A DNA stretch of 64,000 nucleotides from Coriolopsis trogii (taxonomy: Eukaryota; Basidiomycota; Agaricomycetes; Polyporales; Polyporaceae): NCBI GenBank assembly GCA_020543525.1, contig JAHYIO010000033.1:2604001-2668000 (forward strand), written 5' to 3'. Position numbers and translations under genes: made by a program. The first letter of the stretch is position 1, and every line of letters begins with the position of its first letter. The notes beneath the pieces are model-generated. The model was given only the letters and a program-made list of their open reading frames with translations, was not told the DNA's origin and ran no database searches. Below, piece by piece: positions 13,831 through 60,000 of the stretch.

Positions 13831-14131
13831 GGGTCTGAGAGGGCAAGCCGCAAGACTTGACTGAAGTTGAACCGTGACTTCAATGAAGTTCATTGAACGC
13901 GTCGTGAACAGCGAATCACGTGGGTCGCGTCAGCATGCGGACATCGACTCCCGATTGGCCGACGACGATCGACCGTCTGCCCATGTCGTCCGACCCTCTA
14001 CAAAAGATGGCATTCCTCGCCACCTCCTCAGCCAGGTCTGCGGCCAGTTCATGTTGCTCCGGACGTTCACTGTCCATCAAGTCGCAAAGGGAAAGAGGTT
14101 CCAGATCTCCTATACATATATCAGGCGGAAG

Positions 14132-15323
14132 ATGAGCACAGAGCTACCACCGTCGTCCATCCCGCTGTTCCCGACGGTCGCGTCATATCGAGAATGGCGG
14201 AGGAGGGCTTACGACGAGAAGAAGTCGGTCGGGTTCGTCCCGACCATGGGAGCGTTGCACGAGGGACATCTTTCGCTCGGTACGTCACCGCACATCTCAT
14301 CTTCGTCTCCTCTTACCGACAGGAACACGACGAATCGCACCCACATCGCAGTTCGACGGTCGCTGGCCGAGAACGACCTCACTGTCCTCTCGATATTTGT
14401 GAACCCAGCCCAGTTTGCTCCCCATGAAGATCTCGCAACGTACCCCCGCACACTTCCCCGCGACCTGGAGCTGCTCTCCGAAGTGTCGGTCGCGGGACGC
14501 TCCGCCGCGGCCGTCTTCGTCCCTACCGTGAACGAGATGTACCCGAGTGGGATTACACAGAGCGTGGACGAGCAAAAGGGCACGTTCGTGGAAGTCAAGG
14601 GGTATGGACACCAAATGGAAGGCAGGACGCGTCCCACCTTCTTCCGTGGGGTGGCCACGGTGGTCACGAAGCTTTTCAACGTCATCGAGGTACGTGAGGC
14701 GATGACGATAATGAATACGAGAATGATCTGACACGGGCTCGTAGCCGACGCGAGCATACTTTGGGCAGAAGGACATCCAGCAGGCTCTTCTACTTCGCCG
14801 CCTGACGCGCGACCTTCTCCTCTCCCACCCGGAACCACAGAACCTGCGCATCGTTCCCACCGCACGGTGAGTCGACCTTCTCCCGTCTGACCACTACGGC
14901 GATGCTGACCCTAAACGCGCATATAGGGACCATAGTACCTCTCTCGCCCTCTCTTCGCGCAACGCGTACCTCTCCCCTCACGAGCGGGATGACATCGCCC
15001 CAGTGCTGTACGAGGCCCTCCAAGCTGCCCGGTTGGCATGGGAGGCGAACGCACCAAAGTCCGAGTGCATCTCGCGCGCGCAGGCGGTCATACAGGCGAG
15101 GATCGGTCAAGTCGGGGACACGGCCGACGTGCGACTGGACTACATCGAGATGAATGACCCGGAGACGTTCGATGTCGTACAGGACGAAACGTCGCAGGCG
15201 GAGTGGGAGCGCTATTCTGTAGGACGGCCCGTCATCGTGAGCGGAGCGCTGTGGGTCGGGAGGACAAGGCTTATTGACAACCTGGTGCTGGGTGCCCGAG
15301 AGGCACTGGGCATAGAAGACTGA
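14132..15323 (+). CDS. PAN6: Pantothenate synthetase
   Basis: Four exons (introns 14280-14351, 14690-14744, 14867-14926) give 334 residues. The enzyme (pantoate-beta-alanine ligase) condenses pantoate and beta-alanine with ATP, the last step before pantothenate, the precursor of coenzyme A. The family motifs are present: FVPTMGALHEGHLSLVRRS (the HIGH-like ATP site), IFVNPAQFAPHEDLATYPRT, GRTRPTFFRGVATVVTKLFN, AYFGQKDIQQALLLRR and SLALSSRNAYLSPHER. The length exceeds the bacterial enzyme (about 280) by insertions in the C-terminal domain, as in other fungi. The start at MSTELPPSSIPLF is chosen because homology begins soon after; upstream in-frame codons are not conserved-looking. The gene appears intact. 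Confidence 0.95.
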
Positions 15324-23477: not shown

Positions 23478-24302
23478 CTAGCATTCGCGCCATCGGAAGA
23501 CCATCCAGATCACCCACCGCCTGCGTTCCTGCTCGTCTTCGCCTTCTGCGTGCTCGACACTCCAGGACCTCTCTTCCGTGCCTCCAACCCGTCTCTCCAT
23601 GAGTTCCTCCGCAACGAAGCCCGCGCCCAGGATGAGATTCAGGAATGATTGGATGACATACCGTCCGGTGTGAAGACCAGCGATGAGATACACGCGCGCA
23701 CGAGAGCACCGTTTGAGTGTGAGCTGGAGTGAGTGTATGAAGATGTGATGCGTCTCCGAGTTCCACAGCGTGTCAGCAGCAAGTACGACATCGAAGCCGG
23801 GGACAGGGTCGGCATGCGCATTTTGGGAGAGCAGGAGAGGGAACGGGTCTGACCCCCATCCGTACGGCACGACACGACACCGGTCATCGATTTTGTTCCG
23901 TTTCGCATTGTCTGTGAGAGTGCGGATGAGGCTCTCATCGGGATAGTCGCTACAAGTCAACAACGCGTCCGGATAGAGCTTCGAGATGAGGATGCTGGGA
24001 AGACCCGCGCCGGCTCCTAGCTCGAGTATCCTCAGAGGTCTCTTTTCTGTCTTAGCGTGCGTAAGGTGCGCGTCGAGGTGCAGGTCGTGGACGTGGTCTG
24101 CGACGTATACTGCCGAAGACCATATCGATGTGGCGTGGAGCGTCCAGTTCGCTGCCAGTGTGTCTGGAGTGACTAGAGTGATTGGTGGCTGATGGTCATC
24201 GAATGAGTAGGTGAAGATGGAGCCGGGATGAGAGTGCGCGACAGGGACATGGTCGTAGAGACTTTCGAGAGAATCGGCAAGGACGTCTTCGGGGTCGGAC
24301 AT
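23478..24302 (-). CDS. EFM7/NNT1-type protein lysine methyltransferase
   Basis: A single exon of 274 residues. Methyltransf_16 fold: the SAM loop ILELGAGAGLPSILISKLYP, the acidic strand end TCSDYPDESLI, VVPYGWGSDPFPLL and FDVVLAADTLWNSETH. The GAGAGLPS plus SDYPD plus YGWG(S)DP combination is that of Efm7 (formerly Nnt1), which methylates the N-terminus and Lys3 of translation elongation factor eEF1A; substrate assignment here is by family only. The start at MSDPEDVLADSLESLYDH is preferred; a Met 24 codons upstream would add a segment unlike the family. It is divergent from the first gene of the zinc-module array, with 242 bp between 24302 and the possible first exon at 24545, suggesting a shared promoter. 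Confidence 0.85.
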   Translation of the reverse strand: MSDPEDVLADSLESLYDHVPVAHSHPGSIFTYSFDDHQPPITLVTPDTLAANWTLHATSIWSSAVYVADHVHDLHLDAHLTHAKTEKRPLRILELGAGAGLPSILISKLYPDALLTCSDYPDESLIRTLTDNAKRNKIDDRCRVVPYGWGSDPFPLLLSQNAHADPVPGFDVVLAADTLWNSETHHIFIHSLQLTLKRCSRARVYLIAGLHTGRYVIQSFLNLILGAGFVAEELMERRVGGTEERSWSVEHAEGEDEQERRRWVIWMVFRWREC

Positions 24303-24544
24303 GGCAGAGAGCAGAACGGACAACGAGTGATTGAGTGAAGCCAGTGAAGTCTGCCAAGATCCGAGTGAGAGCAAGACAATGATTTGTGTTTGTAAGGTTT
24401 GTATGCGTCAAATGCAAGTCCCCGATTGAGGGGTTGTCAAGGGATTAGGCGAGGATAAGGCGGGCGGTTGAATTTGGGGTGGTCTGTGCGACGACGACTC
24501 GGTCTGATTCCCCTCCCGTCTGTCCCGCCCTCAGACCCATCTTC
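24303..24544. promoter_or_regulatory. Putative bidirectional promoter
   Basis: Lies between the methyltransferase start (- strand) and the candidate first exon of the array gene (+ strand). No TATA box is clear on either strand. Confidence 0.35.
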
Positions 24545-24885
24545 ATGCCCGACACGACGTCCTCCCCCGCTAGGTGCGCACACACTCTCCGTTGCTGTCG
24601 CCTGAATCGCCGGGCTCATGTGGGACACGCAGAGGGCCTGACAAGGTTACGTACGCCGGACGTTCCAAGGTGTGTTTCTCGTTGCATTGTTCCATCCATT
24701 GACCGCGTTTCGAGCGGGGCTGCGCGTACAGCGGAGGAGATCCACCGTCGACAAGACTTATAAAGACTCTGGGTGCGTTGTTTCGCGATCGCGGCGCGGT
24801 TGCCATCTCTCATGCGCGTCGATCGGTCAGAGGAGCGTCCGACGGAGAATCCACTGACGAAGAGACCCCGGCGTCGGGCAAGAAG
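24545..24885 (+). other. Candidate upstream exons of the first zinc-module gene
   Basis: ATG at 24545 begins MPDTTSSPA; a donor GTGCGC follows at 24574. An acceptor at 24731 opens a second exon (to 24885) that stays open and reads RGASDGESTDEETPASGKK before GTGAGT. The two pieces add up to exactly 61 codons and would join in frame to the ATG at 25124 through a 238-nt intron. That is long for this genome, so these exons may be real, or the gene may start at 25124. RNA evidence would decide. Confidence 0.4.
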
Positions 24886-25123
24886 GTGAGTCTTACTTCC
24901 GCTTTCGACTCCGCACGGGCAGGACACGAGGGGGAATGGGAAGGGGAATGAGGAAATGGTTGTCGAGTGAGATAGCGTGAAGCGCGGGATTACTCACGGC
25001 CCGATTCATGATGGAGCACTCGCTCAGAACTGCAGCCTCATCCCACGCTGTTTCACTCCTCCTCCCCCTTCTCTCACTCCCGTCTTTTCGCCCAAAAAAC
25101 GCGCCCCTCACACGTCGTCTCAG

Positions 25124-26625
25124 ATGGCTGCACGAACCCCCAAGAAAGTCGATGTTCAGTGAGTACACCGGTTGTTTTCAATCGCGTCAAACCCGTTCAA
25201 CTCCGATATCAGCCTTCCGGGTCCCTCCCCCAAGCGCGGTCAGACCGAAACCCCGAGTCAGACCGCATCCGCGAAAAAGCCTGCGAGCACGAAGGCTAAG
25301 AAAGGGATGCATTCGCGGTCGGGTTCAGTGGCGTCTCTCGCGCGTGAGGACACTCTAGACGCGAGCGAATTGTCGCCCATGAAGCCCCTCTCGACTGCCA
25401 ACACCAAGCCTCGTTCTCAGATTCAGTGCGCATTCTCCCCATACCATATCTATACATGTCTCAATCTGTGCCATCACTGTGCAGACGCGCAGATACAGAT
25501 GACGGTGAATCTGCAGTAGGTGAGAAGCAGGGGCGCTACGCGTCGCGTAAATCTCAGCCTGAGAGGCGCCAGTTCCTCGAGGACGATCCGAACTCAGGTG
25601 ATGTCGAGGCACACCGCGTGTACTGTAAGGCGTGCAACCAGTGGATCGAACTCAATCCGACGCGCAAGTACATTATGAAGAATTGGGTGGAACACCGTAG
25701 GCAGTGTAAGAACGCTAGCGAGCGCTCTGAGAGGTACGCACCCCGTCTATCTCGTTGCTTACAGAGTGTTTAGGGCTATTACAGTCCGACGAAGGAGAAG
25801 GAGGCGGAGGTGGAGGTGGAGGCAGCACCAGTCACCCCCGTGAAGCCTGCCCCCGCTCCCATCGGGGACATCTTCAACACGGCTTCGAAGCGCATCAAGA
25901 ACGAGGACGACCGAAAGGCAATTATCGAGAACGACCCTCTTTCAGGCGAGGTAAAGCCTGACACGGTCTACTGCAAGAATTGTCAGACTTGGGTCAAGCT
26001 ATCTAAGGATACGCGTTACTCGCTTCACCCATGGCGTCTTCATGTCCAGAAATGTTCTGGCGCTGTGTGAGTCTACTCCATACTTGCCGATGCCATTATA
26101 GCTAATGATGTGACAGTCCGGGAACTCGTGTCGCTACGGCACAGCGGAAGCTGTATCTGATCAACGACCCTCAAGTCAAGGCTTTCACGAATCTCAGCGT
26201 CGAGTGCAAGGAATGTGACAAAGATATTCAGCTGGAGAGCAAACTTGACTACGATCTGACCAAATGGGAAGAACACAAGGCCATTTGTGTTCCGTAAGCC
26301 GCCAGAGCAGATTACACCTAGTGTTGCGGTTATTCATTGCTCGTTTGACAGCTCGGCTCCTCCTGCGAAGCCCGCAGTGGCGACCGCTCTTCGATCTCCG
26401 CCCTCTCTTTCGACCACGGAGGATACGCTCGTACCTACCGATGGAGGAACACCCAAGAAAGGAACGAAGCGGTCACGCGAGGAGGACGATATACCGGATC
26501 GTGCCGTTCGTCAACGAAGCGCGACCTACGAGGCTCCTCAGGGCGATGCCCCCGGTTTCCTGGACTGGATCACGACTCCCATCAAGAACTTCCTGCGTGA
26601 CTTCCGCGCAGGTTTGTCGGGCTAG
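25124..26625 (+). CDS. Array member A: three tandem Cys2-His-Cys modules
   Basis: Six exons (introns 25159-25212, 25426-25484, 25734-25784, 26067-26116, 26294-26351) give 409 residues from this ATG. A basic, Ser/Lys-rich N-terminus (MAARTPKKVDVHLPGPSPKR) is followed by three copies of one module whose Cys-to-Cys cores lie at 25624-25707, 25972-26055 and 26205-26288. Each core starts with CxxC (CKAC, CKNC, CKEC), has Leu 6, Tyr 12 and Trp 17 residues after the second Cys, then His, and ends H-x3-C. About 20 residues ahead of each core is a charged helix ending in [DN]DP (RRQFLEDDP, KAIIENDP, KLYLINDP). The tail has a KKGTKRSREED stretch (possible nuclear signal) and ends DWITTPIKNFLRDFRAGLSG. 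I recognise no named family; a zinc-binding nuclear protein is the inference. Confidence 0.8.
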
Positions 26626-27431
26626 GTATCCCTCAACCGTGACAGCGAAAAAGTTCCTTTGGCTGCCAGCTATGCTTATGACAATCCTTGACATGTACTT
26701 CTCTTGCGCATGCTTCGTCTACGTGTATACAACTCCACTATTCGCGCTACCCCCTCTTCATCGTCCATTAGTACTCTTGCCGTTCCTTGTTTGTGTATTC
26801 GTCATTGGTCAATCCAATCTGTTAGTCTGAAGTTCAGTCTTGCTTCATAAATGACCTGTCGTCCTGTTAGACTAGGGTGTATACGATTCCTACTGTCCAA
26901 ACTCCAATACAACTCAGATACCAATGTAACTGCGGAGGCTGAAGAGCCTCCGCAAAACCTTCGTCTGGTAGGTGATCGCAGCCGACCGCGGAGGTGCAGC
27001 ACGTCTTGGGCGCGTCCACGACGCGACTTGAGCGGGACTTGCCGGGCTCATAATCCTACCCTCCCGCCGGCCACACCGCACTTGCCACTCTCACTCACAC
27101 CGTCTCTCGCTTGAAACTCGCTACGTGCACTATTTCAACGTCTGGGCTACTCTTGAACGTCACAGGATTTGGAAGGCACTACCGCAGCAGCCACTAGACT
27201 GCAGCCGCCAGCCACCCGATTCGGGCCACTCGCGAGGACAAAGAAGTGTCGAGGTGCGTTTGGAGCTCCGACCTCTTTGGGAGTGTTGCCACTACCACAC
27301 GATATAAAACTGACGAAGGGGTGTCCATAGGCACTTTGACTCGTACCATCACAAACACACACCAAACGCATTCCGTCCTCCTGTTCTTTCAGCGTTCACG
27401 CGCGCTCACTCGCCAGACTCGTAACCACCTT
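26626..27431. other. Spacer between array members A and B
   Basis: No gene supported. The second half is the 5' region of member B. Confidence 0.5.
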
Positions 27432-28560
27432 ATGGCGTCCCCTGGAGAAAGGCTGGTTTCCCTCGAGCAAGTCCCTTTGTATCGCGCTCTGCGTATATTT
27501 GTCTGACGTTTGCTCATACAGAGCTGGCATCCCCCTACCTTTCCCCGATGCACCTTCTATATCCGTGGACCGTCGTCGGTCAAAGCGGCGTGCCAACGAG
27601 CCACCTGACGTTACCCCCTCACCGAACAAGAAGAAGCGCGTATACACGGCCCCGGCGTACGTCTCTCTTTCTCTCACACCTTCCCACACGACGCGTGGAA
27701 CAATCGCCGTCCTCGTCGTTGTTTTCATCTCAGAAAGGTTTGGGGACTGACGAGACCACGTGACTTGTGCGCGCGCAGACTCGAGACTGGGGAACTGTCT
27801 GGAGAAGACAAGAAGAGGCTCGCGTGGCTCGAACGGCAGCCGCTCGCGAAGGTGCTGGACATGCTCTTCGTGCAGTGCAAGCGGTGCGGACAGCGGATCA
27901 AGCTTTCGCAGAGGTGCTTGTACGACCCTCAGCATTGGAAGAAACACCGGGAGCGGTGCGATAGGTGGTCTGATGCTGAGACGGCCCGGAGGCGGGCTCA
28001 GAACGGGATGGTGAGTGTGATTTGATTCGAGTTCGAGTCACGAATCTGCTTGTTCTCTGATGCACGCCCCCAACTGATAGGTCGCTTCTGCATCGCGATC
28101 GTCCACGCCGTCTCTCACCTCTGACGATGAGTCGGAGCTGACCGGCACGAGTGCGCTCAGCCAGATCACACCGTCGCCTCCACCCGAAGACACTCGTACT
28201 CCAGCCCTGTCCAGCCCTGGGCTACTAACGTCGCACGTTTTGTGTGTGGAGTACTTCGCGACAGGCTACCCGGACCTCGAAGTTGTCGACCTCAACGTGC
28301 CAATCTCCGCTATCCCGGAGTGGTCGCACGAGTGTCTTAGAGCGCCCGCCTTTGCAAAGGTGGGACTGGCGGAAGTGGTTCCCGAGACGTGTACGCTTAC
28401 CCCGGCGGTATGGGACGAGGACGGGGATGAGGATGAGACGCGCGAGGACGACTTCAACAATTGCCATCCTTGGGTCGAGGATCCGCCCACTTGCGACCTG
28501 ATGCGTTCTCCCTTGGCGTTCGGTGCGAAGCAGTTGCCGCTCGGTGCCCGGTTGTCCTGA
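27432..28560 (+). CDS. Array member B: one Cys2-His-Cys module
   Basis: Four exons (introns 27479-27521, 27657-27778, 28011-28080) give 297 residues. The N-terminus is basic (DRRRSKRRANEPPD, SPNKKKRVYTAPA), a likely nuclear signal. One module core at 27876-27959: CKRC, then IKL, then LYDPQHW and KKHRERC, with the same spacing as in member A; the preceding helix is KKRLAWLERQP. A Ser/Thr-rich link (SRSSTPSLTSDDESELTG) leads to a folded-looking C-terminal part (YPDLEVVDLNVPISAIPEWS) and an acidic stretch (WDEDGDEDETREDD). The first intron is only 43 nt and uses a GTATCG donor, chosen because it is the only way to keep the basic region in frame. Function unknown. Confidence 0.75.
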
Positions 28561-29627
28561 TAGACGATAGATGTCTTTCTTGAAATTCCTTTTCCAGACT
28601 TGCCTGTTTCTTGCCTTTTGTTACGATCTGCTTACGCTACCGCTCTTAACATTAGTTGTAGTGAAGTATAGCCCGTCTGGGGCATGTGCAACGTAATGTA
28701 GCTCTGTATAGTAGCGCGAAAGCGTGGACCCGATTTCGTGCGCGTACGCACTGAGGGATGGCCCTGAGGGGTAGTTGTACTCGACTCACCGAATTCAATC
28801 CTAATGAGGGAAGCTTGCATTGCAACCAGGCGAGTTATCGTAGGAAGGGAGTGTCAGAGTCCTCGCGATGAGTCGTGTACACAGTGATGGTATAGTGCGC
28901 ATGCGGTCAGCAACTGTACATGATAATGATTTAGCGTCTGAACCACTCAAGTGATGATATGAACACGTACAGGCTGCGTTCGGTAAGATCGTCGGAAGAC
29001 AAGTTTTGGCAAGGAGTGACGTGATGGGTGAAGGTAAGCCAACATCATTTCCTATGCACCGCCGATGGCGATGAGTTGCTTCTAGCTGTAATAGACACCG
29101 ATTCTTCCCATACCGCATAGTGACTTTTCCTTGTATGTCAATATATCATACAGTCGGGGCCGAAGGTGTGCGAACTCCAAACGCACATGATGACTGCAGT
29201 GCGGGACGGAATTCTACTGCAGATCTTGACATGAACGCGCTGCATGCAGGCAAAAGCAGAGCATCACACCGCCTTATGCTTCCTGTGACTATGCTGGCTG
29301 CGGAGACTAGATGATGGAAGGAACCAAGTGCAGGCGGGCGGTGTGTTGTTGAAGTTGTCAGGCGCCCTACTCCCGAGGAGCGCGTCTTCGGGAGATGCCG
29401 GATGCCCTTCTTCCTATACTACCGCGTGCGCTCCTCCTCACTACGACTGTGGCGACTGAGAATATGTGTTCTACAGCCCTCCAAATCCTGCTGGACGCTT
29501 GTGATGTTGGGATGAACTTTTTTACCGTGGCATTCGCAGCAGTGGCGGGTGAATAGAGGGTATGCCGATGCACGTACTACTTTCTCGCCACAACCACCGT
29601 CGTTCGCCCGGGCGATGAGCTACATTT

Positions 29628-29648
29628 GGCAGGTCATTTCAAGGTCCG
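29628..29648 (+). promoter_or_regulatory. Shared upstream block, member C copy
   Basis: GGCAGGTCATTTCAAGGTCC plus one further base matches the block at 31931-31951 with three differences. It ends exactly 168 bp before the start codon of C, the same as in D. Confidence 0.6.
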
Positions 29649-29711
29649 CGTACACAAGTACAACGTGTTAGTGGACACTGCGCGTATGGGAACTCTCTAT
29701 ACTCCCGGAAA

Positions 29712-29718
29712 TATATAA
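29712..29718 (+). promoter_or_regulatory. TATA box of array member C
   Basis: TATATAA about 100 bp upstream of the start codon, followed by a pyrimidine-rich leader. Confidence 0.5.
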
Positions 29719-29815
29719 GCACAGCTAACAACATGAAACCGTTCTCATCGTCCCCCCCGAATCTCAATCTACCACCTCTACACCGTTCCCAGTCTCGAAC
29801 TTGCCTAGCCTCACC

Positions 29816-30961
29816 ATGCCGCGTAAAGCAACAAGCCGGAAAGTCAGAGTAGCCAAGACTTCGCAGCGCAAATCCACTAGCAAGCGGTCCATCCTCTATG
29901 ACTTCTTCGATGAAGCTACGCTGTACGGTTCCCGTCCTCCTCCCTCCTATGGGCATTGGCTGATATATTCTTGATATGTTTCAGCGAATTGTTCAGGAGC
30001 AGGACTCGACTCACTCATCCTCTGGATCCTCGTGTCAGTCCCAAATGGTATGTAAAGCATCCCATGGTGTGATGCTCGACTACGCCTGTGCTCCTCATTT
30101 CTCACTCACACAGTTGCTTTCAGCTGGTCGATGGAAGCTTTGACTACCGTAGGGCAATATTATCGCTGGAAGTTCTATCACGACGAAGAGCACATAGCGC
30201 GCTTCGACGAGAGGGACATTGAATGTAACCTGTGCCATCTGCCGCTCGCGTTGTCCAAGAAATCGGTGTACGACCTCTTCAAGTGGATCAGACACCGTGG
30301 CATTTGCAAGGAGCGGACTCCCTGCGAGAGGCAAGAGGAGTACGAGAAGCCCGAGGCCGTCAAACGCGGGAAGAACAAGATATGGGTACGGGGGCCCGTC
30401 AACCTGAATGCATCTCCGCCTGCGCACAGCTCTCGGAAGGCGAAGGTACGTGGAGTGTCCCTCCTACGGAGCAGTGATTCTGACTCCGTAGACCAGGAGC
30501 CGCGTCTGGTGACCCCTCTATCCAACCGGGTTCTGCCTCCTCGGTTGTACAAGAATCGCCCTTACGACAACGATGAAGAGGCCTCCACTCAACCACGGCT
30601 ACCTGTTCCTAGAACGTGCAGCGCATCCCCCACCCCCGCCACTCCCGAGCTGTCAACCGACGACTCGGATGATGACGTCGAAATGCAAGACGCCAACTCT
30701 TCGCCTCCCACCCCTCCAAGTCAGCTTTCATGTTGTACTCTCCCCCTCGATGACGCTGTAATTGACGCCACAGCTGTCATAGAAGACGTTTCTCCGCACC
30801 CAGAGACGTTCGGAACACGGGAGGCCCACCGCTCATCCTCTCCGTGTCCATCTCCTTCGCCCATTCCTGACCCTTTCTCACACGGTCTGCAATATCTACA
30901 TATGCTGGCTGGGGTTTGTTGTGAGGCGCCGAAGGCTCCGAAGGCCGTCAATCCCTCCTAG
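29816..30961 (+). CDS. Array member C: one Cys2-His-Cys module
   Basis: Three exons (introns 29923-29984 and 30048-30123) give 335 residues. The N-terminus is strongly basic (MPRKATSRKVRVAKTSQRKS). The second intron falls in phase 2 within the Cys codon of PKC, just before the module, exactly as in D and E. The module begins QYYRWKFYHDEEHIARF and has its core at 30224-30307: CNLC, LAL, VYDLFKW, IRHRGIC. The remaining half is Ser/Pro-rich and acidic, including SPTPATPELSTDDSDDDVEM, which aligns with a PTPELVMDDS stretch in D. The protein ends LQYLHMLAGVCCEAPKAPKA. Function unknown; zinc binding and nuclear location are inferences. Confidence 0.8.
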
Positions 30962-32118
30962 TAGGAGGACTTCCAGTGTCATGTGGTTGTTTTACCGTCG
31001 CAGGATGGCGGTACACGAAAGACCAGCCTTCGAGCGCGTCGAGCTAAACCTAGCTCGGTGTTTGCTAGATGCACTCCTTAGATTTCTCGCCTGGGAGGAG
31101 ACGTTGTCTTGACAGACTGTTCTCGTAGCACTCTCTGAGTTTCGCTTACGCTCTTGGTCTAGTCTTGGTGCTGATGTGTATGCTCTGTTTCGGACTATTA
31201 TCCTATGTTCCCTCCGATGACATACTATAGGTCCGCCTAGGAGGATGTTTCTTGTATAGGCCTGTTGTGATCCCAGATCCTAATTTGTACCTGCTATCTC
31301 GTCTTTACTGCGTCTCTACTACGATATTGTGAATTTGTGTTCACAACTAGTAGCTCGCATAGTCTGTAGACACCTACTCCTATTGCATTTCGAACCCAAC
31401 TTGAACGACTCTTCACTGCCTCGCTGCCCCGGGCGCCCGGGCCTCAATCGATCTCAACCCGACTCGGGTCATGCGAGGGTGGGACCAGTGAACTTAGTAG
31501 CGAGTCACTCGTAACACGCTGCATACACGTTGCAGCATTGCCACGCACTGCTTTTCGAGCAACTCTTCCTGGATGCAGTAATTTCGTACTACCCTTGGGA
31601 AGACAGAGATGGGAGAAGTGCGTGAGACGGGCGCCAAAACGCGGACGCGCATATCGTCCTTGGGCGCGACATCGGGAAATGCCGGATGCCGTTCTTCTCT
31701 GCCGCGACCTTATGTGCTCAGGCTCAACTTGTCGACTGTGGCGGTCGACTGAAAGTCTACTTCTGCCCTTCATCTTCCTGCGGAGTGTTCAGAGTGGTGA
31801 AATGACGCCATTATTATCCGTCAGAACTAGAGGGAACATTGCAAGGTGAGGAGATTATACGTCCTGAGCTAGCTCAGCATGGTAGAAGGTAGCAACCAGC
31901 TCCGAATCGTCCAGACAAGGGTCCGGATATGGTAGGTCATTTTGAGGTCCGTACAGCCTAGGATAAGAAGTATTGGGTGCGTATTCTTTCCGTGACATGA
32001 TAATAGCTTTAATTGAGGTGACATGCCCGTCCTGTCTCGTCAAACTCCCCCCGCTACCCCCCGGATCCAAGCTTGCATTATCTGAGTCGCATCATCACGA
32101 GCGTCCTCTCTCTTCAAG
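30962..32118. other. Spacer upstream of array member D
   Basis: No gene. It contains a GC palindrome CCCGGGCGCCCGGG (31428-31441), a block near 31679-31708 (ATGCCGGATGCCGTTCTT) like that upstream of C, and the shared block at 31931-31951. Confidence 0.5.
31931..31951 (+). promoter_or_regulatory. Shared upstream block, member D copy
   Basis: GGTAGGTCATTTTGAGGTCC plus one base. It ends 168 bp before the start codon of D, the same distance as the copy before C. Confidence 0.6.
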
Positions 32119-33486
32119 ATGGCGCGAACCTCAGTCTCTTCTACCTCCGCCACAGAGGACGTGACAAGTGAAACGTATGTTTCTTCTGGGATTTAGTGAA
32201 AGTGTCCATGACTGAGCTCAGGCGCTGCACCCTTGCACGTCCTTTCCCGCAGGCTCTCCTTCTATTCGAAATGGAAAGAGGGCTCCCTCGAACGAGAAGT
32301 CAGACAGATGAGCAGCAGGAAGAAATTGCCTGTCCCCCGAAACCCTACAAGCGCAAAGTGGTATGCCAACCTCAGTTCTGTTATCGCATTACCTGCGGGT
32401 CGTTGACCATCTCCCGTCCACAGTTACTCCCAAAAGCCACTCAAAACCGAGAGCCAAGTCTGTCGATGGAAGTACTACAACGATGACCCGATGGTAGCCT
32501 CCTTCAGCGACAAGGAGGTGGTCTGCCAGCTGTGCGGCGGCGTGACGGAGTTGAGCTTGAAGAATCTCTACGATCTCGAACACTGGACGCGACACCGTGA
32601 AAGTTGCCTCGTGAGCCACGGCGCGTTCGGTGACAGTATACCTCGTCCATCCTCGGCTAGCAAGCCTTTTCGGCAAAGGAACTTGAAGGGAAAGGCTCGC
32701 GCTCGCCTGGCTTTGACTCCTAGATCGACGAAGACGATCACTCCAGCATGTCGCACGACGAGGTCGAGAGTGCGTACTGAGTACTTACCTCGTTCTCGTT
32801 ACATGCATTGATTCTTTGGTCGCGTCTAGAGATACCTGTCGTCCCCTACGCCTGATCCTGCCTCAGTCACAGTAGTCGAGGAGACGGCAAGCCCCAGTCC
32901 ATCCCTCCCCTCCATATCGCCCACACCAGAGCTGGTGATGGACGACTCGGTAGAGGATACCGAGTCTCACTGTCGAGACACATCTTCCTTGTTGACTACT
33001 CCTCAACCTCCCTCTCGATTTTATTGCTCTGCCGCCGCATCCGCCGATCCACGAAATGGCGTTTCCGAGTCTCTGAAAGCCAACACGCTCTCGAAGCCAG
33101 ACTCCCCGGATGTGTGCCGCCCGTCACCTCACCCTCGATCCCCCGGCCCGCCACTGAGTGAGGGGTTCTCTCTCCTCCTCTACGCCCAAGAATGCGCACT
33201 TCCTCCCCCGTTCGATATTGCGGCGGTCAAAAGAGGGTACGTCGATGGGAACGCCATCGATGCCTACCTCGACGACATCCGTCGTCATATGGCCGCGAAT
33301 CCCGCAAAGGCACGCTGCTACGCGGACAAAGAGAATGTCCCCGTCTTGCTTCATGATACGATTCCAGGACGAGATGTCTATACGTCGAGTTTGGGCTCCG
33401 ATGGGGAGACCTGTATCGTTACTACGCTCCCCACTCCTTCGCGCCGTCGAGCCAAGCCACGCACTCGAAGCGCTCGCCCGTACTGA
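32119..33486 (+). CDS. Array member D: one Cys2-His-Cys module
   Basis: Four exons (introns 32175-32252, 32361-32423, 32770-32829) give 388 residues. The start is MARTSVSSTSATEDVTSE. The second intron is in phase 2 inside the Cys codon of SAKC, as in C and E. Then come VCRWKYYNDDPMVASFSD and the module core at 32524-32607: CQLC, TEL, LYDLEHW, TRHRESC. A basic stretch (RQRNLKGKARARLALTPRS) follows. The C-terminal 200 residues are Ser/Pro-rich, with SISPTPELVMDDS (shared with C), a more ordered part (PPPFDIAAVKRGYVDGNAID then AYLDDIRRHMAANP) and DKENVP, which contains a KEN tripeptide. It ends in a basic tail (RRRAKPRTRSARPY). Function unknown. Confidence 0.8.
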
Positions 33487-34840
33487 GCGCGTTGTACGAT
33501 GAACCTCTCCCGCCGGTTGTTGTTGGTAGTTTAGATTACTCTCATGTTGTCTGTATTTGTGGACGCTGCTCTGTTTTTGTTGTATCGTTTGGTGTACTCG
33601 TATTGGTGTACGACTCTCTGTTTTTGTCGGACGCTGCAATTGTCTTGTCTATCTTCGTCGAGTCAAATAACGAATCGTACCTCCATCCGCAAACCATTCT
33701 GGAGAGTCTATACTGCTCCATACTGCTCCATATCTTTCTGGAGAGCAATCACTGTTTTGGCTCATTGCGTAAGAGGTACGATGGAACCGGAATTTGCCCA
33801 CCGAGACGCTACGCCCGCTCACATACTCGCCTTGGCTTCGATTGAGTCCACCATGCTGCATACAGCATGCGATTGCGTGCCATAAAGAGGTATTTGGGTA
33901 GCTTGAGATCAGAGCCTCCGAAGAAAGAAGAGAGCCAACGCCGCCCGCGAAGTCGCGCCACAACGGGAATGATGGACGACCGGGTGCCGTGAGCCGGAGG
34001 TTGATATCGTTGAATAGACTGAACCTGAGCTGTGTCTATCCTCGAGGCTTTGGACCAGTGAAAATCCGCTATGCTTCCTTCAGTTGCTGTGTCTTTGGGC
34101 TCAAACGTTCGCACACTATTCGATGAGAAGCCAGTTAGCGGCGTGTGCCTAAACACTCACTCGTTATCTCAGGTGACTCAAGAGGGGGCAGTGTCGGGTT
34201 TGTGACTAGGTGTGGGATACTGGCAGTCTTGCCAAAACCGTAGACTGGTGTCGTTTGTTGTCAGATTGGTACTCGACGCGATACTAGGACCCGTGTTGAC
34301 GACGTACGGTTCCTGGTCGACCATCTATCTCTTCTTTTCTGCAACAAAAAGACTACATTATGAGGACCGGATACGCGAAGAAAAGAGCAGCAGATGGGAG
34401 AACAACACCTCGGAGTCTTGAACAACAACGAACTTGTTCAACTCACGACGAGCGCTTCGGCGGTTGCGATGACGCGGGAGCCGTGAGGCGGAAGATGCCG
34501 AACGCTCTCACTTCGACCAGGCGACGCTGAGGCGGAGCCGCTTTCCTCGCCCTTGCCAAGGACCCTGAGCTTTCTGTGCAGATGGCGCATCGCCCATTAA
34601 ATACAATCACAAAAGGGAAGAAGCCTCTACCATGCTCGTGCTACGGACAATACTTGGCTGCTTCAGGCAAGCCTGTTGAAGGTCCGCCACCCGGAGTACC
34701 GCAGCATGAGCACTTCCCATGTATCCTTAAAACCCCTCGAGATGGGGGGAATGCAACTCCGTTTGACACATCACAATATCAATCACACAAAGCCTCCTCC
34801 CTCCCCCTGCACTGTCCTGTAGCTCTGCCCTGACGCCGAC
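33487..34840. other. Spacer upstream of array member E
   Basis: No gene seen. A short direct duplication ATACTGCTCC occurs at about 33711-33731. TTGAAGGTCCG at 34676-34686 recalls the core of the C and D upstream block, 155 bp before the start of E. Confidence 0.45.
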
Positions 34841-36271
34841 ATGGTCCTGACTCGCAAGCAAGCTACTATCCAGGCCGCGCTTAAACTGCTGCAGCGACGG
34901 TGAGTATATCCATTTTACTGCATTTTCTGCATGACTCAAGGATGCATGGATATACTGCTGCAGGATTACTCGCTCCTCCGGCACCTCGGGATTGAAGGCG
35001 CCGAGGATCAGCCCTCTACGAAAGGCGAAAACACAGAGTCGGAGACCCAATCCCGTTCCATCCTCTCTCCGAGCTCATCAAGATAGTGAGGTTCACCAAC
35101 AGCGGGAGCAGCGCCCTGCACGTCTGCGCCAGGTAACTCCCCCCGAACAAGACGAAAAATGGTATGTCCATCGTATCCCCTCGTCTCCGCCACAGTCCTG
35201 ACTCCACTCACTTAGCGATACCGAACACTTTGTGTTCACCACTATCGCTCAAGTACGACGTTATCAACGTTTCTGCGCCAACGAGAACGTCTGGGTGTTC
35301 AACGAAACACGCGCAGTCTGCAATCGCTGCTTGCTCAGCGTGCAGCTCTGCACCAAAGGCGATAGTTCGTACGATCCAACCAAGTGGGACGCACACTCTA
35401 GTCCCAAACGGTGTCTCAGATGGTCGCCTGGCGAGCTTGCCAAGAGGCGACGCAAGAACATCAGCGATAGCCTTAGATATCCAAACGGCATCATTGTGAG
35501 AATCTCCATCACTTCTGCGATATTGTTATGTTTTGACGTCAACTTTCTCTGCTATAGCCGCCACGCATTCGGCGGTGCCGTTTGGCTGAAGATGCCATGG
35601 ATGAAGAGATGTTGATCTATCATCCAGTCAACGATCCACACTCCGACGAATATCTCGCCCTCGACGGTCAACCGAATACCCAAACAACCCCCCCGCCACT
35701 CCCCGAGATCAACGAAGGCGCTCAGCAGTATCCAGAACAGGAAGATAACAACGTCGTAGAGGACGAGATGGCCGTCGATCATATGCTCCATGTCTCACAC
35801 GACTACGAGCACGAGGGCGACTCTCCAGGAGTAACTCCAGCCCCCGACATCAACGTGGTCGATGACGAGGCGCAAAGCCATTGTCAAGAGCAGCCCGTGG
35901 CTGATACGTCCCTCGTCGATGCTCCTGATCCCTTGGTCCTTCTCGCCACAACAGCCGCCATGACATCGCGCAGCCCAACGCCAATACCCCCAGATGCAAA
36001 GAAGGCACCAGCTGCGCCGCCCTCCCCGAGCACCAGTGCAGATGTCAACTGCGTTTATGACTTCAATCCCGGGACCCACGGCGATGTAACGGCGAGTCGC
36101 GATGGGCCCTCGGTCCGAGTCAGCGCAGAGACTGCACAGTTGTTGCCTGGAGCTGGCGCAGGCCCAACCGTAGGCCGTTTCAGGCCCTGTAGCTGGCAGC
36201 TACCAGGGGCACCTTATCGAACGGCGAGGCTCTATCCCAATTTTGCCCGCTCGACTAGGAGTCGCCGATGA
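34841..36271 (+). CDS. Array member E: divergent Cys2-His-Cys module
   Basis: Four exons (introns 34900-34963, 35162-35215, 35496-35557) give 416 residues. A basic N-terminus (MVLTRKQATIQAALKLLQRR) precedes the phase-2 intron inside the Cys codon of DEKC, conserved with C and D. The module begins QVRRYQRFCANENVWVF; the core at 35319-35414 (CNRC, VQL, SSYDPTKW, DAH, KRC) has two extra residues before Tyr and two extra between His and the last Cys, so it is four residues longer than in the other copies. The long tail is acidic and Pro-rich (EEMLIYHPVNDPHSDEYLAL, NNVVEDEMAVDHMLHVSHDY) with a basic end (ARSTRSRR). Function unknown. Confidence 0.75.
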
Positions 36272-41314: not shown

Positions 41315-42816
41315 ATGTCCAAATCCACTCCAACTCCTGACCAGTTCCCTCACCTCGAACAGCTCCGGGCTACACTCTCTGAGCAGCTGCCGTTCTGTAG
41401 TAGATCACTCCAACTGCCATCAGAATGCTTCGCACTCTACTACGGCAGGGGCAAGAACGCGATGTGAGTTGGCACGCTATGACTCTTAGCCTCTATCAAA
41501 TTCACATATGCGGCACGATAGGCACGTTGATCTGTCTGCGTCATCCACGAACGATGCGGATGCCTTGGACGAGCTCGAGAAGGCGTGCGATGCTGCAACG
41601 TTCGGGCGGCAGCAGGAGACGGTACTCGACGAGTCCTACCGCAAAGCAGGGAAGATGGATATCGATAAATTCGTCCTCCCGCTCAACGTCGAGAAGGAGA
41701 GGCTCGTGGACATCGTCCGGGTGGGTCTGCTGACGGGCAAGAATGAGAAGCAAGATATCAAAGCGGAGCTCTACAAGCTCAATGTGTATGGTACGTCTTT
41801 CGTCCGCCGGATATTGTCCACGCCTTACCCAATGGCCCCTTCCCCCAGGCAAAGGCGCATTCTTCAAAGCCCACAAGGACACGCCGCGTGGAACTGACAT
41901 GTTCGGCTCGCTCGTACTCGTCTTCCCCACCCCTCACGAGGGCGATGAGCTTTTCCTCCGCCACGAGGGCAAGGAGTGGACGTTCGACGCCGCCCAGATC
42001 CTCTCCGGGACAGAACGCACCGTCGCCTACATCGCCTTCTTCAGTGACGTTGAGCACGAAGTCCTCCCTGTCAAGAGCGGCCACCGCGTCACGCTCACCT
42101 ACAATCTCCACTGGTCCTCCCCGCCGCCCGTCGCGTTGCCCGCCACGCTTACCGTGCTCTACCCCAAGCACGCCAACACGCCCGAGATGGAGCAGGCGCT
42201 GTCTACCTTCCTCGCCGACCCGACGATCCTGCCCCAAGGCGGCACGCTCGGCTTCAGCCTCCGCCATGCGTACCCGTTCCCCAGAAGGTGGAATTGGACG
42301 ATGCCAAACCCGCTCGACTGCCTCGCACAGTGGCTGAAAGGCAGCGACGCCGCTCTCTTCCACGCGTGCGAGGCGCTCGGGCTCGAGCCGTGCCTGCGCC
42401 TGGTCAACGAGGAGACTGGGCGCGGGGAGCTGGTGATGATGGACAGCGTGGTGGACCTCGAGTGCACCGACGACGCCTACTCGGAGGCGTGCGTGCTGTG
42501 CAGCGAATACGGCGGGGTGCTCATCAACAGCAAGCGGTTTGACGGTAGCCTCGTGCGCGAGAGAGACAGATATGACGCGAAAGTGTATGAGAGGTTCGCG
42601 AGCGTCGACGTCTATTGGGTCAAGAGAGAGAAAGCGCTCGATGTCATCGGCACAGAGTATGCGGCGTATGGGAATGAGCCGACGGTAGCGTACTTGTACA
42701 TGTACGTCTCGCTCTTCGTAGACGTTGGCCCTCGAGGAGACCGGACGAACATCGAAGCAGTAGATGGGGTGAGTAATATATACTATGGACTTGAAGAAGG
42801 GGACTCCGAGGATTAG
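41315..42816 (+). CDS. 2-oxoglutarate/Fe(II)-dependent dioxygenase-like protein
   Basis: Three exons (introns 41464-41521 and 41791-41848); the last is a long open exon. The double-stranded beta-helix core is clear: GAFFKAHKDTPRGTDMFGSL carries the His-x-Asp metal pair, FPTPHEGDELFLRHEG follows, then YIAFFSDVEHEVLPVKSGHR with the distal His (EHEV) and the Arg (HRVTLTYNL) that binds 2-oxoglutarate. This is the prolyl-4-hydroxylase-type 2OG-Fe(II) superfamily. In mushrooms such proteins of 400-500 residues are common and uncharacterised; the substrate is unknown. The 3' end is uncertain: the frame continues to TAG at 42814-42816, but a GTGAGT at about 42769 could splice to a slightly different tail. 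Confidence 0.8.
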
Positions 42817-51893: not shown

Positions 51894-53445
51894 TTAATTG
51901 ACATCTAGAGGGATCTTAGCAGCATCAGTCTGGTTGCGCATGAACGTAACGAATCTGAGTGCCTTCGTGCCACCGGTACCAGGCGCATCCTTATCAAACT
52001 GGTCGACGTATTCACTGATGATCTCGACATGTTCGTTGCGAAAGTCCCTCAGCGCCGTGATAGCGTCGTTGTACGCCTTTCGGAGAGTGACGTTGCTATT
52101 CTTCTTCACTTGTTCGCGCAGCGGGTGCGAGAACGTTTCGAGGTAGACGAGGAACGCGCGATGGTGGGAGGGCATGTACAGTTGCATACGCTCCAGGAAA
52201 GACACCACCTTGCCTGTGACCTCGGAAAGGGGCGTCGGAGTCAGGGAATGAACACTCTGTAGCGAAGCCTGCGCGTTGTGGGCGGAGTTTCTATGCGTAA
52301 ATGCGTGTATCCCGAGGAAGATGTCGATCGCCTGGATGAGTGAGGTCTGCCCTGCAGACGGACCGGATAGCTCTCTTGGCTGCTCCTCCTCGGCGATGCC
52401 GTCAAAGACCCACTTGGGACCGTTGGGATCCTGGCCCATGAACCATAGCCGGATCTCGCCCCAGAAGGTTTCCGGCTCGCAGCCATTGCGCACGCCGGCA
52501 AGAAGCGTCGTCATGTCCCCCACGACACCTGCGAGGATACCGAGGTAATGCGCGATATGGCGCTCCGCGTCCTCGCCGTCGATGGGCATCCAGCCCATGA
52601 TCGCACGAATGATGGAGAGCGCCTCGATGCCGCGGAGCTCGACGCGGGCGGACGCGAGGTAGAACTCTTCTTCGTCGGGGGTGCCCGTGAAGAGGCTCAG
52701 GCAGCGGAGGTTGCGCAGCTCGGATTTCGGCAGGAAGAAGACGGGCTGCGTCGGTGGCACCTTGAACGCCCAGTTGTATAACACAACGTCCGAGTACGTC
52801 AGGATAGGCGGTATGCGGAGCTGCGAGCAAACCCTGAGCAGGGGGATGGAGATTGGACACGGGATATGAATCTCATTGGGCTTGGACGGCACTGGGATAG
52901 TGTTCACATAGATGTGCATCATCATGGTAAGGACATGATGCGCGCGGCGGAGGATCTCATCGCCCTCGAGGTTATCGGTAGAGAGAATCGGAAGCTGTAT
53001 ATGTGTGTGCATATTAGCCGTTGTTCACTGACACTGACTCAAGCGTCACACTCCAACGTACCTCACGGACCGTCTCGCGCCATTGTTCCGATCTCTTTCT
53101 GGCCTTGTCCGTCAAGCCTTTTTTCGTTGCTGGCTGAAGCCTGCTGGAAATTCCGTTTTCTAGTGTGATTTCCCACACTTCCCATGCCAGAGGAAGGCGA
53201 GTAAGCGGGGGCTTATGAGGCATGAACCCGACGCCTGCGTCAATGTCGAACTCATGAAGGACGTCGTCTCCCCCGGGAGGCGAATAAATGGAGGAACTGG
53301 TATGTGTCAGGAAGGTAGTAGGAAGGGAGGATGTGATGGGCTCCGAATCATCGAGCATGAAGACGTGGAAGTCGCGGTTGAGGTTGAGGAACTCCAAATC
53401 ATAGTCACCGAGGTCGAGAAAGTCGGAGGAGGGAATATAATCCAT
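51894..53445 (-). CDS. Indoleamine 2,3-dioxygenase
   Basis: Two exons (53062-53445 and 51894-52994; 67-nt intron) give 494 residues. IDO signatures are LSGPSAGQTSLIQAIDIFLG, RMQLYMPSHHRAFLVYLE and PGTGGTKALRFVTFM followed by RNQTDAAK, with NAQASLQSVHSL in the heme region and LRDFRNEHVEIISEYV in the long helix. IDO is a heme enzyme that opens the indole ring of tryptophan to N-formylkynurenine, feeding the kynurenine/NAD pathway. Fungi often have several copies (IDO alpha, beta, gamma) and this is one of them; which class cannot be told here. The N-terminal exon (MDYIPSSDFLDLGDYDLEF) precedes the small domain. Intact. Confidence 0.9.
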
Positions 53446-57098: not shown

Positions 57099-60000
57099 AT
57101 GGCTTTCCCGCTACCTACGCATTTACCCCGGAAGAAGGATGCTCGTGACGTTTCGACACAGATCCTCACGAAGATATCCGAGACCTCGTCGAAAGCTTTG
57201 AATGCAAGTCTGGTATCTTCATGGGTTGCTGAATTGGATGAGACCATCAGAGTTACGAAGGTGCGTTGAGACCCGCCGCGCCGAGTCTAAGCTGAATGTA
57301 GCCCGAAAGACACGCATACATGACCGCATTCATAGCGACCTTCCCAACTTCGAGCGGCAGCTCGCGTCCTCTATCTCTGTTCAAGAACGACTCCGTCTAC
57401 TGTCACAGAACGTTGACACACTCAGCGAGAATATCTCGAATCCACAGGTAGGACGTACCCAGACTGTATGCGTATGTTCTCATTCACATGCTATGAAGTC
57501 AGGCTTGATCCCCAGCCTCGTTGCGGCCTTGACCACCCATTCCCTGCTTGCTCAAGAAACTGCGGATGCACGGGCGCAACATGATGCAGCGGCACATTTG
57601 CTCAAGTGTCGGGATGAATTGAGGAATTTGACGCGTCTGGTGGAAAAGGCTGAGCTTGCGGACGCTAAGAAGCAGTCTCTGGCACTAGAGCGAGCACTGG
57701 GTGAAGCACCAGAGGCTCTGTCGCAGAGTGAGGTCATGGCGGACTTGAAGGTGCGTGATGCCAACATAACCCTCTCATACCGAAATTCATAGTTTTGTGC
57801 GGTGGGATACAGCGGAGGTCCTCCGCATTGCGAAATCGCATAGAGGAACATCTTCTCAATGCCTACTCGCGTAGCATCGTCGTGTCGACCACCGAAGCCT
57901 CAATTCGACCTACTGTGCAGGCAGTGGTCTCACGCAAGCCCGTCTTAGCCCAGACGGTCGAATCACAGGACAGTGCAGGCACTATCATTGGGCTCACGGA
58001 TGTGCTCGCTTCCATGTCCCCTGAAGCGCTCTCCATGCATCTGTCGACTCTCCGCCGCGACATTATTGCCCACTGCATCGAGTACATCCTGAAGCAGCCT
58101 GTCCAAATCTACGAAGCCGAGAAGAGCGACTTGACAGGGGCTGCAGAGCACAAGCTGTCTTTCGCGCGTTCTCCGCCAGACTCGGGCAACCTCGTCTCCC
58201 GTCTAGCAAACCTCTCCACGGTCATGACTTTCCTACACACGCATCTCTTCCGCCACCTCCCTCAACCGGAGCGACACTCGTTCCCGCTCTCGTTATGCAA
58301 CCCGATCCGGACTGCCCTCTTGGGCCACCTATTGGTGCCCAACCTACCTTCGTCGCTTTCGAGGCTGCCCGACTTTCTGAGGCTCGCACAGGATGCCGTT
58401 AAACTTGAGGACGACATTGTAGTAAAGTTATTAGGAGACGATGTCGCGGACCGCAGGATTGCATCGTGGGTAGATGGTGTCGGCATGCACTACGAGCGCA
58501 AACGACGTGCAGAGATACTGGACAGGGTACGCGTCATAGTCGTGACTCCCTCTGACGACAGCGACTCCTTCCGTGTAGAAGTGCCGTTGGCCGTCGAGGA
58601 GAAGGTCACCACAATTCAAGCCGAAGAGAAACCCGCAACAAACGGTACGGTAACGGAAGTAGCGGCCGACGGTGAGGATGCCTGGGGCTTCGAAGACGAG
58701 ACACCTAGTCAGAGTGAAGACTCATCGGGTGACGGATGGGGTTTTGACGATGAAGTCGAAGAACCGACACCAGAGCCGCAAGCGGCGTCAGAACCGCTCA
58801 AACCTCATGAACCTCCGCAGGTCGTGGTCCCTGTCGAGGAAGACCCTGGGGACGCATGGGGCTGGAACGACGACACCGAGCCTGTGGAGGTAGAGGAGGA
58901 GTCGGCATGGGACGATGCATGGGATGAGAAACCATCCGTTCCTGTTCCTGAACCTGTCTCACCAAGTCCCGTTCCGAAGCCTGCGAAAGGCCTGGAGAAG
59001 AGGTTCCAAGGGAAGAGTGTCCCGAATTCCCCTGCGTTCCCGCCACCAAGTCCGGCCGTGCCCGCACATCCATTAGCATCCCCTCCTCCTGCACCTGTTA
59101 CGACCACGAATCCACCACCCCCGCCGGCGTTGAAGCCCTTACAGGTGAACGAGTCCTACGTCGTGTCCGGACGGACGAGGGAGCTCCTGCGACTTGTCGA
59201 AGACGTACTCCGAGAAGGGTCCGAGCTCGTCGCTTCTGGCATCCTCTCTGGGACACCGGGCAATCTCATCATGCAGGCCGCCCCGATGGCACTTGAGTTG
59301 TTCCGTGCTCTCGTTCCGGTCACGAACGCGGAGCTTCTCAAACAGTCTGCAAAAGAGCCTATGAAGTTCTCCAACGACTGTACATACGTCGGGCACGAGC
59401 TTGGGCGGATTGTGAAGAGCTTGAAGGGGGCGGAGGAAGGCGCCAAGGAGAGGTTAGATGATGGCGCGGAGCGGTTGAAGGTGCTCGCTGATAGCTTCTT
59501 TGAGGACGCGATCGTACGTACACCAGCTTGTGCAGTACCTCTCGCGCGCAACGCTGATACCATGTCTTCCAGGCGAGAGAAGAGAAGCTGATTGATGAGA
59601 TCCTCGACAACGCGCAAGGATTCATAGACACCACGCAACAGGAGCGGTATGACGAGTGCGAAAGCGCTGTCAATGATGTCTTGCAGCGGATTCGCCGAGT
59701 TGCGCCCCAGTGGAAAGTACGTACGCATATGTACTCTCTCCCGAGCATTTTTGCTGATTGTTCTCCTTTGGCAGGCCGTCCTCACGAAAAGCCGATACTA
59801 TGATGCTCTGGGATCGGTCGTGGAGGGGGCATTATCGCGGATCCTCGGGGACGTGTTGGCGCTCGAGGATATTACGGAAGCCGAGTCGCACCAGCTGCGC
59901 GAGCTATGTCACATCCTCAACGCCCTGGAGTACTTGTTTGTCGAAGATCCCGAGCAGCCGTCTTTCGTTGTGTCGTATGTTCCGTCTTGGCTCAAGTTCT

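Follow-up and report, generated by a model that had tools for sequence, protein, structure and literature searches.

What kind of module is repeated along five neighboring genes of the basidiomycete Coriolopsis trogii, and how did it multiply? The genes (A to E) lie on the + strand of a 64,000-nucleotide stretch, hereafter the window, of contig JAHYIO010000033.1 (assembly GCA_020543525.1, positions 2,604,001 to 2,668,000). A preliminary description had reported seven copies of a Cys2-His-Cys module there, six of them with identical spacing. A six-frame pattern scan of the window recovered, between 25624 and 35414 on the + strand, six exact CxxC-x19-H-x3-C modules plus a longer variant in gene E, each supported by alignment as well:

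Module A1, 25624-25707, + strand: CxxC through the last Cys; pattern scan and alignment; also folded
Module A2, 25972-26055, + strand: pattern scan and alignment
Module A3, 26205-26288, + strand: pattern scan and alignment
Module B, 27876-27959, + strand: pattern scan and alignment
Module C, 30224-30307, + strand: pattern scan and alignment
Module D, 32524-32607, + strand: pattern scan and alignment
Module E, 35319-35414, + strand: variant with two additional residues before His and two more between His and the last Cys

The strict pattern was matched on average 0.06 times in 100 first-order Markov windows of equal size, compared with the six observed matches; when Leu, Tyr, Trp and the hydrophobic residue after the CxxC were also required, the mean was 0.0, again compared with six. 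All seven modules carry, without variation, the leading-helix Arg, the two Cys of the CxxC, Leu, Tyr, Trp, His and the final Cys. The residue at +4, described as hydrophobic, is so in six of the seven modules and is Thr in module D. In addition, all 6 pairings of the subfamily profiles matched each other with HHalign probabilities of 94.5-98.9%. These results confirm that the seven copies form one real, conserved module family.

To place the modules in their genes we derived our own splice models from the sequence, with GT-AG introns. All five predicted genes can be spliced as open frames, as had been proposed, with introns of 43-122 bases:

Gene A, 25124-26625, + strand: 409 aa, three modules; exons 25124-25158, 25213-25425, 25485-25733, 25785-26066, 26117-26293, 26352-26625
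Gene B, 27432-28560, + strand: 297 aa, one module; exons 27432-27478, 27522-27656, 27779-28010, 28081-28560; intron phases 2, 2, 0
Gene C, 29816-30961, + strand: 335 aa, one module; exons 29816-29922, 29985-30047, 30124-30961; phases 2, 2
Gene D, 32119-33486, + strand: 388 aa, one module; exons 32119-32174, 32253-32360, 32424-32769, 32830-33486; phases 2, 2, 0
Gene E, 34841-36271, + strand: 416 aa, one module; exons 34841-34899, 34964-35161, 35216-35495, 35558-36271; phases 2, 2, 0

Gene A, which had been thought to begin at 24545, more likely starts at the ATG at 25124, about 580 bases downstream; the splice model does not need the upstream bases. Its five introns, of 50-59 bases, are all in phase 2, and the model has no internal stops. 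A phase-2 intron precedes every module exon, and in B, C, D and E it lies 33, 34, 34 and 35 residues before the first Cys, respectively. The sites of the first two introns of gene C are ambiguous, an earlier model with other sites being also open, and because their revision took the arrangement in the other genes as a guide, gene C does not count as independent evidence for this intron arrangement.

A further member of the family was found outside the array. The genome (38.8 Mb in 39 contigs) was searched with eight modules as queries, including A2 and F4, a module of the gene found in this way. Only the best candidates were scored in these searches, which places the family at no fewer than six genes in this genome. 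The additional gene, F, shares its contig with the array and is on the minus strand (C30:746.5-747.9 kb; locus L043, G000:C30:742000-751000). In our model, whose 3' end is uncertain, it has three full modules and one remnant that lost the CxxC and kept W-x2-H-x3-C, and all five of its introns are in phase 2. Module F1 shares with E the two-residue insertion before His. The predicted product also has a charged helical tail. Thus, the local expansion put forward for the locus holds as a five-gene array, but the family is not confined to it. Three other candidates, L011 (E 0.12, one stop), L029 (E 0.045, four stops) and L030 (E 0.059), were discarded, as the CxxC...H pattern was absent in the matched frame.

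To obtain a view of the module itself, A1 was folded with AlphaFold2 using an alignment of 15 rows. The resulting model (mean predicted local distance difference test score, pLDDT, 83.5) shows a helix at residues 5-14, strands at 18-21, 25-28 and 33-36, and a last helix at 46-54 that carries W48 and H51, with C55 directly after it. This is the arrangement of a beta-beta-alpha finger, in which a CxxC hairpin is followed by a helix with the last two ligands, and it makes it plausible that CxxC and H-x3-C are brought together as a zinc site. Among the VIA-align matches listed for this model, 20/24 were spliceosome entries and one was TUT4 with pre-let-7 RNA, and the top match spanned 55/63 residues, the N-terminal helix included. 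The spliceosomal chains are presumably C2H2 fingers of SF3A2-type proteins. These matches speak for an RNA- or ribonucleoprotein-binding finger of the matrin/U1 type, which has the same beta-beta-alpha core but targets double-stranded RNA or ribonucleoproteins, and this is the main rival on function. The modules resemble classical and matrin-type C2H2 fingers in the CxxC hairpin, the ligand-bearing helix and, in the top matches, the leading helix, but differ from them in having Cys as the last ligand, a longer loop with Tyr, and Trp three residues before His, with no similarity in sequence; no matrin/U1-type Pfam match was found in the modules, in proteins A-F or in their database relatives. 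We regard RNA or ribonucleoprotein binding as unlikely, at roughly one chance in five.

A BED-type finger had also been evoked by the layout. The resemblance holds for the CxxC...H-x3-[HC] arrangement and for the similar size, and two BED structures, 2djr (rank 22) and 2ct5 (rank 31), appear among weak Foldseek matches; on the other hand, BED (PF02892) gave no match in any of the seven modules at E values up to 10, and none above cut-off in the genome. Derivation of the modules from the BED-like fingers of a domesticated transposase, already disfavored by this result, is further weakened by the absence of a transposase domain in A-E, a finding that covers the genes themselves, as the flanks were not systematically searched for element ends. 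We consider such an origin highly improbable.

No Pfam family scored above its cut-off in the seven modules, the five proteins, protein F or six relatives from the protein database (designated by P numbers below), so that no described family was matched with confidence. The claim that the module corresponds to no nameable zinc finger stands to that extent, but it must be qualified by Rua1_C (PF14616), whose second finger parallels the pattern. The longest of the weak Pfam matches was to this family, with E 0.034 for module A1, one of the seven, and Rua1_C remained under every curated cut-off: protein A reached E 4.2e-4 and 21 bits (cut-off 27) over profile positions 81-121 of 122, and P0007 reached E 8e-4 and 20.1 bits. 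No such match was detected by the Pfam scan in B-E, F, P0001, P0003, P0006 (a close relative of P0007), P0008 or P0009. A second below-threshold family, Znf_XAF1_N (PF23580), also gave E 4.2e-4, in 2/7 modules; it resembles them around the CxxC, but its listed matches cover 11-14 residues and lack the H-x3-C part. Because Znf_XAF1_N attains the same E as Rua1_C over the CxxC knuckle alone, E-values of this size are not decisive here.

The question is whether the modules are remote members of Rua1_C, each a second finger that has separated from the first and whose loop is shorter by four residues. The second finger of Rua1_C, the domain of Ustilago maydis Rua1, shares with them the CxxC, the hydrophobic residues at +4 and +6, the W-x2-H-x3-C motif and, in the predicted models, the strand-CxxC-strand-helix order: the Rua1_C model, folded from an alignment of 47/104 proteins, has a strand at 90-95, Cys 96 and 99, a strand at 102-104 and a helix at 118-127 with Trp 120, His 123 and Cys 127. 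When compared with 105 Rua1_C sequences, the module profile aligned to the second finger with the four ligands in register and a four-residue gap (HHalign P 6.7e-4), but at a probability of only 27%; by subfamily it was 35% for A2-like, 15% for A1-like, 4% for A3-like and 1% for B-E modules. The score was reached in 0/150 free column shuffles, in 1/150 with the ligand columns fixed and in 7/150 once the Trp was fixed too, and because the fixed-column shuffles reached it more often, most of the likeness resides in the ligand-plus-Trp frame. Differences are also clear. The loop from the second Cys to His is 23 residues long in 63 of the 66 Rua1_C sequences, out of 105, that fit the pattern, compared with 19 in the modules; many of the other sequences may be fragments. 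In the set retrieved, Rua1_C also has an extra first finger with CPIC and H-x4-H, and the modules match its second half only (HHalign probability for the first half, 0.2%). Common descent with Rua1_C is possible, as a conjecture, and true membership seems doubtful, with a chance of around three in ten. A Rua1-type regulator in which the Rua1_C domain is complete is also encoded in this genome (49 bits, passing the cut-off; locus L044, G000:C5:1158.7-1161.1 kb); its closest named relatives are from Agaricomycetes, Trametes sanguinea being the first with 80% identity. Rua1 is described as a zinc finger transcription factor controlling cellobiose lipid synthesis (PMC7673458). A description of the module was not found in the literature on basidiomycete zinc-finger expansions, Rua1, PF14616 or Agaricomycetes CCHC fingers, a coverage that leaves out most subscription journals. 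The finger family to which it belongs is probably undescribed and has a tidy duplication history, but is of a familiar kind.

Relatives of the modules were sought in the protein database, where one search yielded 5 among 34 candidates and a second 6 among 272. The candidates were limited to about 0.55-1.75 times the length of a 63- or 100-residue query, and because this range excludes full-length proteins of 300-420 residues, we make no claim on the reach of the family or on B-E orthologues. P0001 and P0008 are 79% and 71% identical to A1, P0006 and P0007 correspond to A2+A3, and P0002, P0003, P0005 and P0009 correspond to A3. The 18-row profile used for the profile comparisons and for the tree omits F1 (split by an intron), F3 (without CxxC), P0004 (near P0005) and the second P0007 module. 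In the tree (18 modules, 60 columns), all the database proteins that were placed go with gene A modules, and A1, A2 and A3 each cluster with them and not with one another, which argues that the three-finger gene predates the divergence of those species. Modules F2 and F4 join A2 (ultrafast bootstrap 70), and B-E cluster together (80) beside the A3 group (86). The terminal branches of B-E are long (0.7-1.9), in a tree that holds no close B-E relatives to shorten them.

A simple scheme would accommodate these observations. Entry of the finger exon through a phase-2 intron would permit its duplication in frame, giving rise to the multi-finger genes A, with three fingers, and F, with three plus a degraded remnant; the single-finger neighbors B-E could then have arisen through the copying of a gene that carried an A3-type finger, followed by strong divergence.

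What these proteins do can be proposed from their composition and fold. The basic N-termini noted previously were borne out, as in protein B, with stretches such as RRRSKRRA and KKKR, and Ser/Pro-rich acidic tails are found in the array proteins. Judging from the finger fold, the basic N-terminal stretches, the acidic tails and a loose resemblance to Rua1, our best guess is that they are nuclear, DNA-binding regulators. The bound zinc would pin the short hairpin against the last helix, this helix and the basic N-terminal segment would most likely touch DNA, and the tails would act on transcription. Alternatively, the fingers might bind proteins without contacting nucleic acids, as dimerization or adaptor elements in fast-evolving proteins; the acidic surface residues, the uneven charge of the helix and the single finger per protein in B-E are compatible with it, whereas the basic N-termini and the general tendency of such fingers count against it, and we judge it improbable, though well short of negligible. 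We favor, at somewhat better than even odds, a basidiomycete family of nuclear, DNA-binding regulators that share one type of CCHC beta-beta-alpha zinc finger, extended by a helix on its N-terminal side, and that expanded by exon and then gene duplication.

Lineage-specific zinc-finger expansions are common in eukaryotes, so the principle is not new; the finding is of interest to fungal genome annotators. If the family indeed lacks a Pfam entry, basidiomycete proteins now labeled hypothetical could be named from a profile of it and assigned a role open to testing, and the array would illustrate in detail how symmetrical exons, and then tandem gene duplication, spread a domain.

The regions upstream of genes C and D share two blocks:

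26-base block, 29388-29413, + strand: upstream of gene C, 428 bases before the ATG
26-base block, second copy, 31672-31697, + strand: upstream of gene D, 447 bases before the ATG
17-base block, 29632-29648 (C) and 31935-31951 (D), + strand: 184 bases before each ATG

The search pattern for each block was derived from its own two copies. The 26-base copies are 92% identical and their pattern occurs nowhere else in the window, with two or more matches in 0/100 shuffles, compared with 6/100 for the 17-base block. Modules C and D are 39% identical, and the blocks may be remnants of duplication or shared control sites. Within the 26-base block, ATGCC-GG-ATGCC forms a direct repeat and is a possible binding site. 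A bolder and distinctly tentative version of our reading would have an undescribed helix plus beta-beta-alpha CCHC domain spreading as an in-frame phase-2 exon, with a conserved three-finger gene A that spun off fast-diverging single-finger regulators, promoter blocks retained in C and D, and the whole paralleling, in a fungus, the clustered zinc-finger expansions seen in animals.

Other features were identified in the window, the first of which adjoins the array:

23481-24407, - strand: lysine methyltransferase, Methyltransf_16 family (E 2.9e-12)
51897-53024, - strand: indoleamine 2,3-dioxygenase
13871-14728, + strand: pantoate-beta-alanine ligase
57759-59588, + strand: weak ZW10_C match, below cut-off
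41734-42813, + strand: 2OG-Fe(II) oxygenase
2272-2347, + strand: tRNA-Val (AAC)
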